Notes under the pieces: model-generated
Database searches by the model: none
What the model was told of the DNA's origin: nothing
The model's input: the letters and a program-made list of their open reading frames with translations, nothing else
Shown here: positions 13,519 to 22,796 of the stretch, one piece after another
Position numbering within the stretch: position 1 is the first letter of the stretch
How the letters are laid out: each line of letters opens with the position of its first letter
Source of the DNA: Saprospiraceae bacterium
GTDB lineage: Bacteria > Bacteroidota > Bacteroidia > Chitinophagales > Saprospiraceae
DNA length: 64,000 bases
Reading direction: 5' to 3'
NCBI GenBank assembly: GCA_020629715.1
Contig: JAHDCU010000005.1
Location: 62,001-126,000, forward strand
Program-made: the position numbers and the translations under genes

Positions 13519-15267
13519 ATGAAAGTAGTAGATCGTCAAATACAGATAAGTAATCATCCAAAATGTATCAATCCTTGTGGAGAAGACCGTCTTTCTCGGA
13601 TCGAAATCGAACCTTGTTTGACAGAGTATCATCTGTCGATCGATCGTAGCTTTAATGATCGTACCCTAATACTTAAATGGCGTAAACCTGCCATTAATGT
13701 CAAAGGTGTTTGGACCCCCAATACCCTTATGGATCGGCGAATAAGAGCAGATTGGGAAGATGTATTTTTAAAAAGCAGATTATCCATAGATGCTCCATTG
13801 TTTACGGTATTTGGTCATGATGATAGCAATACAATGACTATATCATGCTTAAATTTGATTGATGAGATTCACGTTGAAGCCAATATCCAAGAAGAAGATA
13901 ATCACATACATTTTACGATAAGCTTAGACCTTCAGTTAATTCGAGAAAATATCCAAAGCTTGGTATTTAGATTTGATATGCGATCAGATCAGTATTCTAC
14001 GATCATTCAAAAACATGCTCATTGGATGGCTTCGCATGGTGAGCTAAAACCAACTCATGTACCCCTTGCTGCCAAGGTGCCTTTATACTCGACCTGGTAT
14101 TCTTATCATCAAGATTTAAGTATAAGCTCTCTACTTGAAGAATGCAAATTGTCCAAAACTTTGGGCTATGAGCTCATTATAATTGATGATGGTTGGCAGA
14201 CATTAGACGATAATAGAGGATATGATTATACCGGTGATTGGAATCCCGATCGAATCGTTGATATGTCTGGATTTGTCCAGCAGGTTCATAAGCTGGGAAT
14301 GAAGTTGATGTTATGGTATTCTGTCCCTTTTTGTGGTGTAAAATCGGATGCATACCAAGAGTTTAAAGGTAAATTCCTGACCGAAAACCATCACTGGGCT
14401 CCAGTTTTTGATCCTCGCTTTCCAGAAGTGAGAAATTATCTCGTTGGTAAATATGTCAACGCCATGCTTGACTGGCATATTGATGGATTTAAACTTGATT
14501 TTATTGATGATTTCAAGGTATATCCCGAGACTGAACTACACGAATTAGAAGGTCGCGATACCATCAATGTCAATGAGGGTGTATCTTTTTTGATTAAAGA
14601 AATTGCAAGCGCTTTACAAGCTATCAATCCAGATGTATTGATAGAGTTTAGACAACAGTACATCAGTCCAGCTTTGAGACATTTGGGTAATATGTTCCGT
14701 GCATTTGACTGTCCTAACGACGCTGTGATGAATAGAGTCAGAACAACAGATGTTAAATTATTATGCGGTGAGAGTGCGGTTCATTCTGATATGTTTACTT
14801 GGCACAATGATGAGTCTACCGAAATTGCTGCATTGCAGATCACCAATATTTTATTTTCAGTACCTCAAATTTCTGTTCGATTGGCTAACCAAAGTCAAGA
14901 TAAAATAGAAATGATCAAGTTCCTTACCGGATATTGGAGGGAGCATAAACATATTTTGTTGGATGGTGATTTTATGGCACATAAGCCATGCACCAATTAC
15001 ACCATATTGGAAGCGAGTGCTGACAACCATAAAATCATAGGATTATATGATGATCATGTAATCCAAATAGATGATATGGATAAGATTGATATCATCAACA
15101 GTAAAATCACACAGGCAGTGTTTTTAGACTTTAGTCAAGTCATTAAAAGCTATACACTATCTGTTCTAGACTGTAAAGGGAAATTGAACGATAGTATCGA
15201 AATATCGCAAAATGAGGGGATACAAAAGATTAAAGTTCCAACAGCAGGCATTATAAAAATTAGATAA
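13519..15267 (+). CDS. GH36-type alpha-galactosidase, cytoplasmic
   Basis: Predicted retaining alpha-galactosidase of clan GH-D. The N-terminal beta-sandwich (about 1-180) precedes the barrel, which has STWYSYHQDL (about 191-200), IIDDGWQT (about 221-228), the nucleophile motif DGFKLDF (Asp327) and RAFDCPND, where Asp397 or Asp401 is the likely acid/base. At 582 residues it is shorter than bacterial AgaA/RafA types (about 700) and closer to compact GH36 forms. There is no signal peptide, so the substrate must enter the cytoplasm intact. The symporter gene follows after 13 bases and galactokinase after that, which supports a galactose-releasing role. The exact glycoside is unknown. Confidence 0.87.
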   Translation: MKVVDRQIQISNHPKCINPCGEDRLSRIEIEPCLTEYHLSIDRSFNDRTLILKWRKPAINVKGVWTPNTLMDRRIRADWEDVFLKSRLSIDAPLFTVFGHDDSNTMTISCLNLIDEIHVEANIQEEDNHIHFTISLDLQLIRENIQSLVFRFDMRSDQYSTIIQKHAHWMASHGELKPTHVPLAAKVPLYSTWYSYHQDLSISSLLEECKLSKTLGYELIIIDDGWQTLDDNRGYDYTGDWNPDRIVDMSGFVQQVHKLGMKLMLWYSVPFCGVKSDAYQEFKGKFLTENHHWAPVFDPRFPEVRNYLVGKYVNAMLDWHIDGFKLDFIDDFKVYPETELHELEGRDTINVNEGVSFLIKEIASALQAINPDVLIEFRQQYISPALRHLGNMFRAFDCPNDAVMNRVRTTDVKLLCGESAVHSDMFTWHNDESTEIAALQITNILFSVPQISVRLANQSQDKIEMIKFLTGYWREHKHILLDGDFMAHKPCTNYTILEASADNHKIIGLYDDHVIQIDDMDKIDIINSKITQAVFLDFSQVIKSYTLSVLDCKGKLNDSIEISQNEGIQKIKVPTAGIIKIR

Positions 15268-15280
15268 AAACCATTTTACT

Positions 15281-19807: not shown

Positions 19808-19839
19808 TATTTTGGATTCATAAAGTAGTTTCCAAAATA
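19808..19839 (+). promoter_or_regulatory. Inverted repeat touching the beta-galactosidase start codon
   Basis: A perfect 9-bp inverted repeat (TATTTTGGA / TCCAAAATA, 14-base spacer) whose last base is the A of the ATG at 19839. It could be an operator or an RNA hairpin hiding the start. No T-tract follows, so it is not a terminator. Confidence 0.45.
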
Positions 19840-22796
19840 TGTCATCACTACTCATACCTAATTACTCCTGGCTAGAGGATCCTTCGGTTTTTAACTTAGG
19901 TCAATCTTCCCAAATTCGAGTCGATCCTCCTTATCATGATATAGAATCGGCACAATGTTTTGATCAGCAAAAGCGATATCAAAAGATTCTATCGGGATCA
20001 TGGAAATTTACTTGGCAGAATAATAGAAAAAAGCTTCCTGAAGGTTTTGAACATGTTGATTTTGATGATAAAGATTGGGATGACATCTCGGTTCCGTCTA
20101 ATTGGGAGCTTTTAGGATATGGTTATCCTATTTATGTCAATGATCGATATGAATTTGATAAAAATCCGCCATTCGTTCCTGCGGATAATGAAGTAGGCAT
20201 ATATCGAAAGACTTTTGAAGTACCTGACGAATGGAAGGGTAGAAGAGTCTTCATTTGCTTCCCTGCGGTGAGTAGCGCCTCTTATTTCTGGATCAATGGT
20301 GAGTTTGTTGCCTATAATCAGGATTCTAAAACTGAGATCAATATTGAGATTACCGATTACTTGAGGAAAGGCGAAAACCTCATTGCGGCACAAGTATTCA
20401 GATGGTGCGAAGGCTCCTATCTGGAGTGTCAAGATATGTGGCGTATATCAGGTATCGAGCGAGAGGTTTTTCTGTATAGTCTGCCCCAGATTGCAATTCA
20501 AGACTATACAGTCTTGGCAGATTATCATCGGGATGGATCAGGGAAATTAGATATCAAAATTGATCTAGGTAAAGCTGTACAAGGCTTGACAATGAGAATA
20601 AAATTGAGTGATGGCAAGTCAACAATATGCGAGAATATTATGGATGCTGAGGGTGATCGGGTCGTCTCTGAGAATTCGATTAAGCTAGTCCAGCCTTGGT
20701 CTGACGAATCACCATATCTCTATACGTTGACGCTTGAACTATGGAATGACAATCAGCTCATAGATATTCGATCACTCAATATAGGTTTTCGGAATGTAGC
20801 TATCCGGAATGGAATTTTGGAGCTCAATTACCAACCTCTACTCATAAAAGGAGTAAATCGTCATGAGCATGATCAGGTACTTGGTCATGTGATTACAGAG
20901 GCTGATATGATCAAGGATATTGAGCTAATGAAATCCTACCATATCAATGCAGTAAGAAATAGCCATTACCCGAATGCTAAGAGATGGTATGAGCTATGCG
21001 ACGAGTATGGCTTATTAGTGGTGGACGAAGCCAATATTGAGAGCCATGGTATGGGCTATGATGAGGAGTGTCTTGCCAAGCATAAGGAGTGGAAAGCGGC
21101 TCACGTTGATCGAGTACAGCGTATGTATCATCGTGCTAAAAATCATAGTTGTATTATCATTTGGTCTTTAGGCAATGAAGCTGGCGATGGCATCTGTTTT
21201 GACGAAGCTTATGATTGGTTAAAGAAGCAAGATCAATCCAGACCGATCCAGTATGAGCAAGCACATGGTGGCAGAAATACAGATATTTTCTGTCCTATGT
21301 ATCCAACCATTGATGCTTGTAAAGCATATCTAGATTCTAATCCAGAGAAACCATTGATTATGTGCGAATATGCGCATGCGATGGGAAATAGCTTAGGTAA
21401 TTTCAAAGAGTATTGGGATATGATCAGAGCATACCCCATGTTTCAAGGTGGTTTCATATGGGATTGGATGGATCAAGGTTTATTAGCCGAGGAGGATGGA
21501 AAGAAATACTGGAAATATGGTGGTGATTTTGGTCCAGAAGACGTGCCCAGCGATGATAACTTTTGTATCAATGGTCTGCTGTTTCCTGATCGGTCTCCAC
21601 ATCCGCAAGTGGAAGAAATGGTTCATTTTTATTATCCTGTGCAAATTGAATATAAAGACGGAAACCTTAAACTCATCAATGAATATCATAGTCAAGATAT
21701 AGAAATTGATGTTTGTCATAGGTTTTGGTCTAAAGAAAAGGTTTTGAGAACTGGACCGATCATGATGAAACTTCTGGCAGGTCAATCATATGAGTTTGAA
21801 CTTAAGCATAACGATTCTCAATATGATACGAACAATGCAGATATTTTTCTAGATATCGATGTATTCGAACTTAGCGCTAACAAGAAAGTAGGATCAAATC
21901 AATTTTTACTTTATGAAGCTTTGGAAATTAGTATGCATGATCAAGTTCAAAGTGGAAAATGGCTAGAGTCCGAATCGACTTATTACTATACATTAAGAGA
22001 AACCAGTATATCCATTGATAAAAAAACTGGGATGATCTCCGAAATAATGAAATCGGATCAAGAAGTCTTGTCTAGCCCAATCCGATTCAATTTTTGGAAA
22101 GCGCCTAATGACAATGATTTTGGTTATGACTATTATGGGAAATATGGTGCTTGTAGAAATGCGCATAAACAGCTTGTATTAAAGTCCTCGAATTCCAAGC
22201 ATAACAAACTACTGTATCATTATCATCATGAAACCCTAGAACTGGAGATTACTTTAGAATACTCAATTTTAGATACTGGACTTAGTATAGAACTAAAACT
22301 GAATCCATTAGGAGAGAGATTACGAATCCCAAGATTCGGTCTGTTCGCTACATTCGATAAACCGTGGTCAGAGATTCAATACTTCGGCAGAGGCCCTCAT
22401 GAAAACTATCCAGATCGCAAAAGCTCAGCAAATTGGGGAACGTATATAACAACAGTTCATGATATGCATGAACCTTATATCGCTCTGCAAGATTGCGGCT
22501 ACCGATCAGAAAACAAGGAATTGATCCTTACGAGTGATACTGATAGTATCAAAATCTCGTCACATCAAGCTTTTGGATTCAGTTATTTACCTACGGATCC
22601 CGAGTCATATACCATTGAGAAAAGAGGGGAGAAGCATGCCCATGAAATTACTTATGATCTTTGTAATTACTTATGCCTGGATGCCTTTATAATGGGTGTT
22701 GGAGGTACAGACTCTTGGTTGAGTGAGCCATTGCCTAAATATAGAAGTGAGAACCTTATTACTATAAATCAATCTTGGTTAATATCTTTTTTATAG
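19839..22796 (+). CDS. lacZ: GH2 beta-galactosidase, cytoplasmic
   Basis: A 985-residue glycoside hydrolase 2 that releases terminal beta-galactose. Domains run in LacZ order: sugar-binding jelly roll (about 35-213), immunoglobulin-like (about 216-317), TIM barrel (about 319-610) and the small-chain domain (about 715-980). The acid/base is Glu447 in SLGNEAGD and the nucleophile Glu510 in [11 protein letters not shown]. Length is close to E. coli LacZ (1023). No signal peptide is present, so it acts in the cytoplasm, like the alpha-galactosidase upstream. It lies 80 bases after glpD with an inverted repeat at its start, suggesting separate control. Confidence 0.95.

Follow-up and report, generated by a model that had tools for sequence, protein, structure and literature searches.

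A candidate operon for the use of small galactosyl-glycerols in Saprospiraceae, with related loci in flavobacteria

Introduction

This study concerns a locus that encodes an alpha-galactosidase-like enzyme of glycoside hydrolase family 36 (GH36). It lies in a stretch of 64,000 nucleotides of Saprospiraceae bacterium (assembly GCA_020629715.1, contig JAHDCU010000005.1; G000:C7:62001-126000 in our numbering), hereafter the window, from a genome of 4.13 Mb in 15 contigs. Several described systems resemble it in part. The catabolism of glucosylglycerol by Marinobacter is likewise a bacterial use of a hexose-glycerol osmolyte heteroside, but the published passages on it describe an enzyme of another family (a GH13_18 phosphorylase) and another sugar (PMC10873239, PMC11787520), and the main text of the first has no word starting glpK, glpD, Bacteroid, galactos or floridoside. 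BoGal36A, from the beta-mannan locus of Bacteroides ovatus, is likewise a GH36 alpha-galactosidase in a Bacteroidota utilization locus; the passages on it have it act on galactomannan and name no glycerol genes (PMC5094572), and the likeness noted here is by description. The solved GH36 enzymes SpAga (6phw), AgaA (4fnr) and those of Lactobacillus acidophilus (2xn0) and Thermotoga maritima (1zy9) share their fold with the GH36-like protein of the window over 449-526 residues (Z 26.3-30.9). The latter is, however, 12-14% identical to them, lacks an evident leader, and is tied to an SSS-family symporter, a SusCD pair, and glycerol genes. Digeneaside, a small heteroside of red algae, is a mannosyl-glycerate, unlike galactosyl-glycerol. 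It is named among the further possible substrates of the polysaccharide utilization loci (PULs) of marine Flavobacteriia, likewise a PUL-type locus for a small red-algal heteroside, in an account whose main text has no word starting GH36, glycerol, GntR or floridoside (PMC6298971). Red algae are described as having galactosyl-glycerol as their main product of photosynthesis, and a GH36 alpha-galactosidase as able to make isofloridoside from galactose and glycerol by reverse hydrolysis (PMC8509150); floridoside is described as an osmolyte (PMC10972271). Among the matches listed in the open-licence literature, there was no bacterial locus for galactosyl-glycerol or floridoside.

Here, we argue that the locus of the window is an operon for importing and degrading a small alpha-galactosyl-glycerol, with floridoside and/or isofloridoside as the most likely substrate, a reading to which we give a probability of about three in four. 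The evidence that carries it is the recurrent presence of glycerol genes in related loci and the placement of one direct-repeat motif both in flavobacterial loci and upstream of distant glpK or glpD genes. With somewhat less assurance, we favour the broader proposal of an undescribed floridoside regulon in Saprospirales-like and flavobacterial genomes, many of which would have their sole glpK and glpD in the locus or under its switch, up to the joining of both proteins in one chain (GlpK::GlpD).

Organisation of the locus

Nine genes of the + strand follow each other head to tail between 4422 and 22796: gntR, susC, susD, the gene of an FG-GAP lipoprotein, the GH36-like gene, the SSS symporter gene, galK, glpD, and a GH2 gene. 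An initial annotation, made from the letters of the window, had described the row GH36, SSS, galK, glpD and GH2 behind GntR-SusCD, and both its coordinates and its family names were confirmed. The features are as follows.

4380..4396, + strand: predicted operator, direct repeat TAGTACAGTATAGTACA with a 10-bp period, ahead of gntR
4422..5438, + strand: GntR-family regulator, probable regulator of the locus (Pfam GntR, 45.2 bits)
5483..8581, + strand: SusC/RagA outer-membrane transporter (TIGR04056, 829.9 bits)
8620..10191, + strand: SusD-like lipoprotein (Pfam SusD_RagB, 137.9 bits)
10274..13444, + strand: FG-GAP/UnbV-ASPIC lipoprotein, recurrent partner (Pfam FG-GAP_3 and UnbV_ASPIC)
13519..15267, + strand: GH36-like alpha-galactosidase, cytoplasmic, predicted galactosyl-glycerol hydrolase (Pfam Melibiase, 30.3 bits)
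15281..16873, + strand: SSS symporter, predicted to import the heteroside intact (TIGR00813, 303.9 bits)
16877..18013, + strand: galactokinase GalK (PF10509, 72.5 bits; TIGR00131, 225.2 bits)
18035..18063, + strand: weak hairpin in the galK-glpD gap (predicted RNA folding energy -10.2 kcal/mol; z of -0.08 relative to shuffled sequences)
18100..19758, + strand: GlpD-type FAD glycerol-3-phosphate dehydrogenase/oxidase (no second copy in the genome)
19839..22796, + strand: LacZ-type GH2 beta-galactosidase, accessory, without evident signal peptide (Bga2A, 863 bits)

With a SusC/SusD pair, a glycoside hydrolase and a regulator in one direction, this is a Sus-type locus. Three proteins score under their NCBIfam cut-offs: GalK just below that of TIGR00131 (226.65), GlpD with 319.1 bits against 360 for PRK12266, and the GH2 enzyme below the 999 of Bga2A; their names therefore hold at the family level. 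The N-termini of the GH36-like and GH2 proteins, judged by eye, show no evident signal peptide, in agreement with the initial annotation. The gaps measure 13 nt between the GH36-like and SSS genes, 3 nt between the latter and galK, and 86 nt between galK and glpD, if glpD starts at its likely ATG (18100); its open reading frame (ORF) is also open from a TTG at 18064. A terminator had been placed in this last gap, separating glpD from galK, a claim that now looks weak: the hairpin has no advantage in stability over shuffled sequence, and a terminator scan does not report it. Folding and scan thus give no support to a hairpin isolating glpD, and neither proves read-through. The single glpD of the genome is the one in the locus. 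The glpK that had been reported missing is indeed absent from the window, but the genome has one on another contig (C4:49052-50521, 711.8 bits), the sole copy above the family cut-off, followed by a gene that we named by eye as glycerophosphodiester-phosphodiesterase-like.

Glycerol genes in related loci

The related loci come from several sources: six from named genomes, five from the order (6 of 248 genomes match, that of the window included), six from the phylum (7 of 395, again with its own), and 36 from the family to which G422 belongs, where 35 of 397 genomes match, two of these being already in the set. Every stretch was annotated against one common reference set. A tree of the GH36-like enzymes with 54 rows separates 39 loci, among them the window, as a core clade from 15 loci outside it. 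Several core stretches stop at contig ends (e.g., L005, L007, L017, L018, and L019), and the counts are thus lower bounds.

The 39 core stretches encode SSS (32), SusC (29), GntR (27), FG-GAP (27), GlpD (16), GlpK (13), GalK (12), GalT (6), and GH2 (5) proteins; the 15 outside loci have no SSS, glpK or glpD gene, one galK, six GH97, and nine sulfatase genes. By eye, the core enzymes are without an evident leader, whereas the 15 others mostly have a signal or lipoprotein leader. These outside loci (L024-L026, L055-L066), with their mostly exported GH36-like enzymes, often beside sulfatases and GH97, are possibly a system for sulfated galactosides.

The difference in glycerol genes between core and outside loci has a Fisher p of 0.002, relatedness being ignored. 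Given one glpD per 4.5 Mb, and again ignoring relatedness, chance would place a glpD within 10 kb of 0.17 of the 39 loci. For comparison, we set 33 GH97 genes above cut-off in 35 of the same genomes against the mapped glp genes: none lies near one, and the nearest pair on one contig is about 155 kb apart. The initial annotation had made its proposal depend on the presence of glpD in the loci of relatives and had looked to them for glpK as well. Both genes are there, although the exact order GH36-SSS-galK-glpD-GH2 is that of the window alone.

The linkage takes several forms. The two glycerol genes stand together in 13 of the 16 loci, and glpD is without glpK in the stretches of the window, L007, and L017. 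It lies directly ahead of the GH36-like gene in L004 and L006 (in both of which glpK follows that gene) and in L017, behind galK in the window, and behind galT-galK in L007, whose GlpD is of another type. The order SSS-glpK-glpD is found in L009, L031, L033, L034, L036, L037, and L038. In four further loci, a single ORF of 1055-1061 amino acids encodes GlpK::GlpD, with GlpK first (L008:13306-16473, L032:4185-7349, L035:4258-7425, L049:5715-8897); among the matches listed in the literature, we found no such fusion enzyme. Such varied construction of the linkage speaks against a single chance event. In the GlpD tree, the in-locus state must have changed at least three times on starred branches, through gains or losses. 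L036 groups with unlinked flavobacterial copies, and all other in-locus copies from flavobacteria fall into one starred clade. The GlpK tree forces just one change. In all 13 genomes with glpK in the locus, no other copy exceeds the TIGR01311 cut-off, and in 15 of the 16 with glpD in the locus, the search threshold is reached by no other glpD.

Lineages differ in which part of the downstream pathway the locus includes. Genes for the galactose part are found in L046, L048, and L051-L054, those for the glycerol part in most flavobacteria with glp genes, and both sets in the window, L004, L006, and L007; in L032, galK lies on the other strand at a distance of about 7 kb. Twelve of the 39 core stretches have GalK and/or GalT. 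Beyond the counted stretches, galK also adjoins gntR in G155 and lies two genes from it in G939. The GH2 gene is on the strand of the GH36-like gene in the window, L006, and L020, and on the opposite strand, some 6 kb off, in the two other stretches that have it.

A direct repeat shared by the loci and distant glycerol genes

The flavobacterial loci share the motif TAGCAYAnnnTAkCAYA upstream of susC or of the GH36-like gene. It is a direct repeat with a 10-bp period, often placed straight after a TATATTTG box, which we take to be the -7 element of Bacteroidota. Scanning of 49 whole genomes for the exact pattern gave between 0 and 5 sites in each. Across the 28 core flavobacterial genomes, the pattern has 52 sites and its reversed control 10. 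Most of the 52 (36, of which 35 by script plus G939:C34) are in GH36 loci, in 26 of the 28 genomes, and nine lie upstream of a remote glycerol gene, at 10-52 nt from its matched coding part: glpK in G422, G629, G988, G851, G999, and G646, and glpD in G827, G953, and G712. These nine sites span six genera. Unlinked glp genes are present in 17 of the 28 genomes, and the motif is found at them in nine, where the control rate predicts 0.0004. Several glpK promoters have TATATTTGC followed by the inverted motif, with the same geometry of TATATTTG box and motif.

Seven sites remain in the core genomes, at other places: G794 has three, G851 two, and G252 and G629 one each. The 8-kb stretches around them, and around sites in G941, G641, and G652, have no GalK, GalT, GlpK or GlpD; one (L122) has a weak GalE-like ORF and an SSS gene among other sugar genes. 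Sites away from the GH36-like and glycerol genes look like chance or other functions. Twelve flavobacterial genomes without the enzyme hold two sites, neither beside a glp gene, the glp genes of these genomes being unmapped. The motif also occurs in two loci outside the core clade (L024 and L058) and is therefore not confined to it. Eight genomes have outside-clade enzymes only, and three of these (G378, G990, and G941) hold one exact site each.

The candidate site of the window initially came up with a low score (10.5) against the flavobacterial matrix, below an unrelated match of 12.0 at 25780. Because its own score is low, its support comes from conservation among relatives, as found with a search pattern fitted to the window site: the 17 bases TAGTACAGTATAGTACA ahead of gntR are exact in the window and in L133 and L136, relatives in the order of the window, have one side altered in L018 and L135, and are looser, by eye, in L134 and L137. 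The GntR protein is predicted to bind these sites.

Fold of the hydrolase and relatives of the symporter

The Pfam Melibiase match of the GH36-like protein (PF02065, cut-off 27) is limited to residues 189-282, and a weak GH31 signal (25.8 bits, cut-off 23.5) accompanies it; the protein also matches solved GH36 alpha-galactosidases by profile. An AlphaFold2 model built from 52 homologues (mean predicted local distance difference test 89.6) aligns with GH36 structures from residue 6 to 582, that is, over its whole length. These are its best solved relatives, with Z about 30 over 508-527 residues and a root-mean-square deviation of 3.9-4.7, and Z reaches 24.9 with GH31 structures. In the profile match, the KLDF segment aligns with KWDM of 3mi6, and the DDGW segment aligns too. 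K325 and D327 are invariant across the 52 sequences. The aspartate of the K-x-D segment is presumably the GH36 nucleophile, and the acid/base residue, if the GH36 pattern is followed, perhaps D397. The protein is predicted to hydrolyse alpha-galactosides. The closest solved structures to the symporter are SGLT1, a bacterial sodium/glucose cotransporter, and SGLT2.

A putative pathway and its alternatives

In the pathway that we propose, SusCD would carry alpha-galactosyl-glycerol across the outer membrane, and the SSS symporter would bring the intact heteroside into the cytoplasm. There, the GH36-like enzyme would split it into galactose, which GalK with GalT/GalE would feed into the Leloir pathway, and glycerol, which GlpK and GlpD would convert to dihydroxyacetone phosphate. 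GntR probably represses the operon by way of the direct repeat that closely follows the -7 box; in relatives, a site of this kind is also present at unlinked glpK or glpD genes. The identity of the substrate is proposed on gene content, floridoside and isofloridoside being the obvious candidates. The galactosyl-glycerol reading of the initial annotation gains from both the linkage with glp genes, in 16 of the 39 core stretches, and the motif upstream of remote ones, in nine flavobacterial genomes. Only the presence of Kordia and Flavivirga among the named loci, and the habits of these genera, point to a marine, algal setting.

Several observations weigh against this proposal. No glp gene is seen in 23 of the 39 core stretches, several of them cut by contig ends, and galK is in under a third. 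The exact motif is missing at the unlinked glp genes of 8 of the 17 flavobacterial genomes that have them, and two of the 28 genomes deviate further, G676 having no exact site at all and G646 none in its locus. The whole-genome scan found no site of the flavobacterial form in the genome of the window, whose glpK has no match within three mismatches in its 4.5-kb stretch (L002). Transcription of glpD with the upstream genes of the window is putative. The GH36-like protein is just 12-15% identical to solved GH36 enzymes, which makes its specificity for galactose a prediction. Finally, a SusCD pair is unusual for so small a solute.

Glycerol would also be released if the enzyme cleaved 2-O-alpha-glucosylglycerol from cyanobacteria. 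The GH31 signal, the resemblance to GH31 structures, and the 27 core stretches with neither galK nor galT fit such a substrate, yet we consider it very unlikely, for the closest solved structures are GH36 enzymes and galactose genes stand in 12 stretches and near two more loci. Moreover, the published passages on glucosylglycerol breakdown by heterotrophs have it proceed through the GH13_18 phosphorylase (PMC11787520; also PMC10873239). A scan of eight proteins of the locus showed no such enzyme; the search was limited to these proteins. The locus could instead be an ordinary one for alpha-galactosides of the melibiose or raffinose type, with the glycerol genes beside it through shared habitat use. 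The sole glpK and glpD of many genomes serve all their glycerol use, so linkage could reflect shared ecology, and raffinose-family sugars are described as commonly preferred by GH36 enzymes (PMC5094572). This is quite unlikely, as the varied arrangements, the GlpK::GlpD fusions and the shared motif go with the core clade, and GH97 genes of the same genomes have no such linkage.

Other galactosyl-glycerols might be the main substrate. The initial annotation had suggested that the two galactosidases might act on the headgroup of digalactosyldiacylglycerol (DGDG), and the sharing of one strand by GH2 and GH36-like genes in three loci fits an action in series on digalactosyl- or beta-galactosyl-glycerol from galactolipids. 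As the main substrate, this is unlikely: 34 of the 39 core stretches have no GH2, and no lipase was recognised among the locus proteins. What stands of the two-galactosidase proposal is the simple alpha-galactosyl-glycerol, the DGDG version being less supported because GH2 is accessory. Where it is present on the same strand, the cytoplasmic GH2 may also remove a beta-galactosyl residue, from beta-galactosyl-glycerol or from digalactosyl-glycerol of galactolipids, and use of the headgroup is a possible extension in the lineage of the window. A galactosyl-glycerol phosphate would yield glycerol 3-phosphate directly, so that GlpD alone would suffice, in line with the three stretches having glpD without glpK and the three remote motif sites at glpD alone. 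We regard this as highly improbable, since glpK joins glpD in most loci and two of those three stretches, L007 and L017, are cut by contig ends.

If the floridoside-type operon that we favour is real, clusters of GH36 and SusCD genes would be annotated for a small osmolyte rather than for oligosaccharides. The locus offers 1) named genes; 2) a predicted regulator with a predicted site; 3) a related clade free of glp genes as a contrast; and 4) a ready assay. GlpK::GlpD would be a bifunctional enzyme of interest in its own right and, if the proposal holds, would pass glycerol 3-phosphate from the kinase to the dehydrogenase inside one chain.

Other genes of the loci and of the window

A homologue of the FG-GAP/UnbV-ASPIC lipoprotein stands beside SusCD in 27 of the 39 core stretches and is a possible surface partner of the transporter. 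Six core stretches have a PAP2-domain (haloperoxidase-like) lipoprotein (L016:13160-14512 and homologues, cluster u3). In seven, a gene resembling hexapeptide sugar O-acetyltransferases (Pfam Mac and Hexapep; L022:10823-11380 and cluster u4) sits between the GH36-like and SSS genes. Elsewhere in the window, positions 26249-34229 hold a type I restriction-modification-like module with HsdM-, HsdS-, and HsdR-like ORFs, named by eye, which also encloses an ATP-binding regulator-like ORF and a small DUF4062-like ORF.

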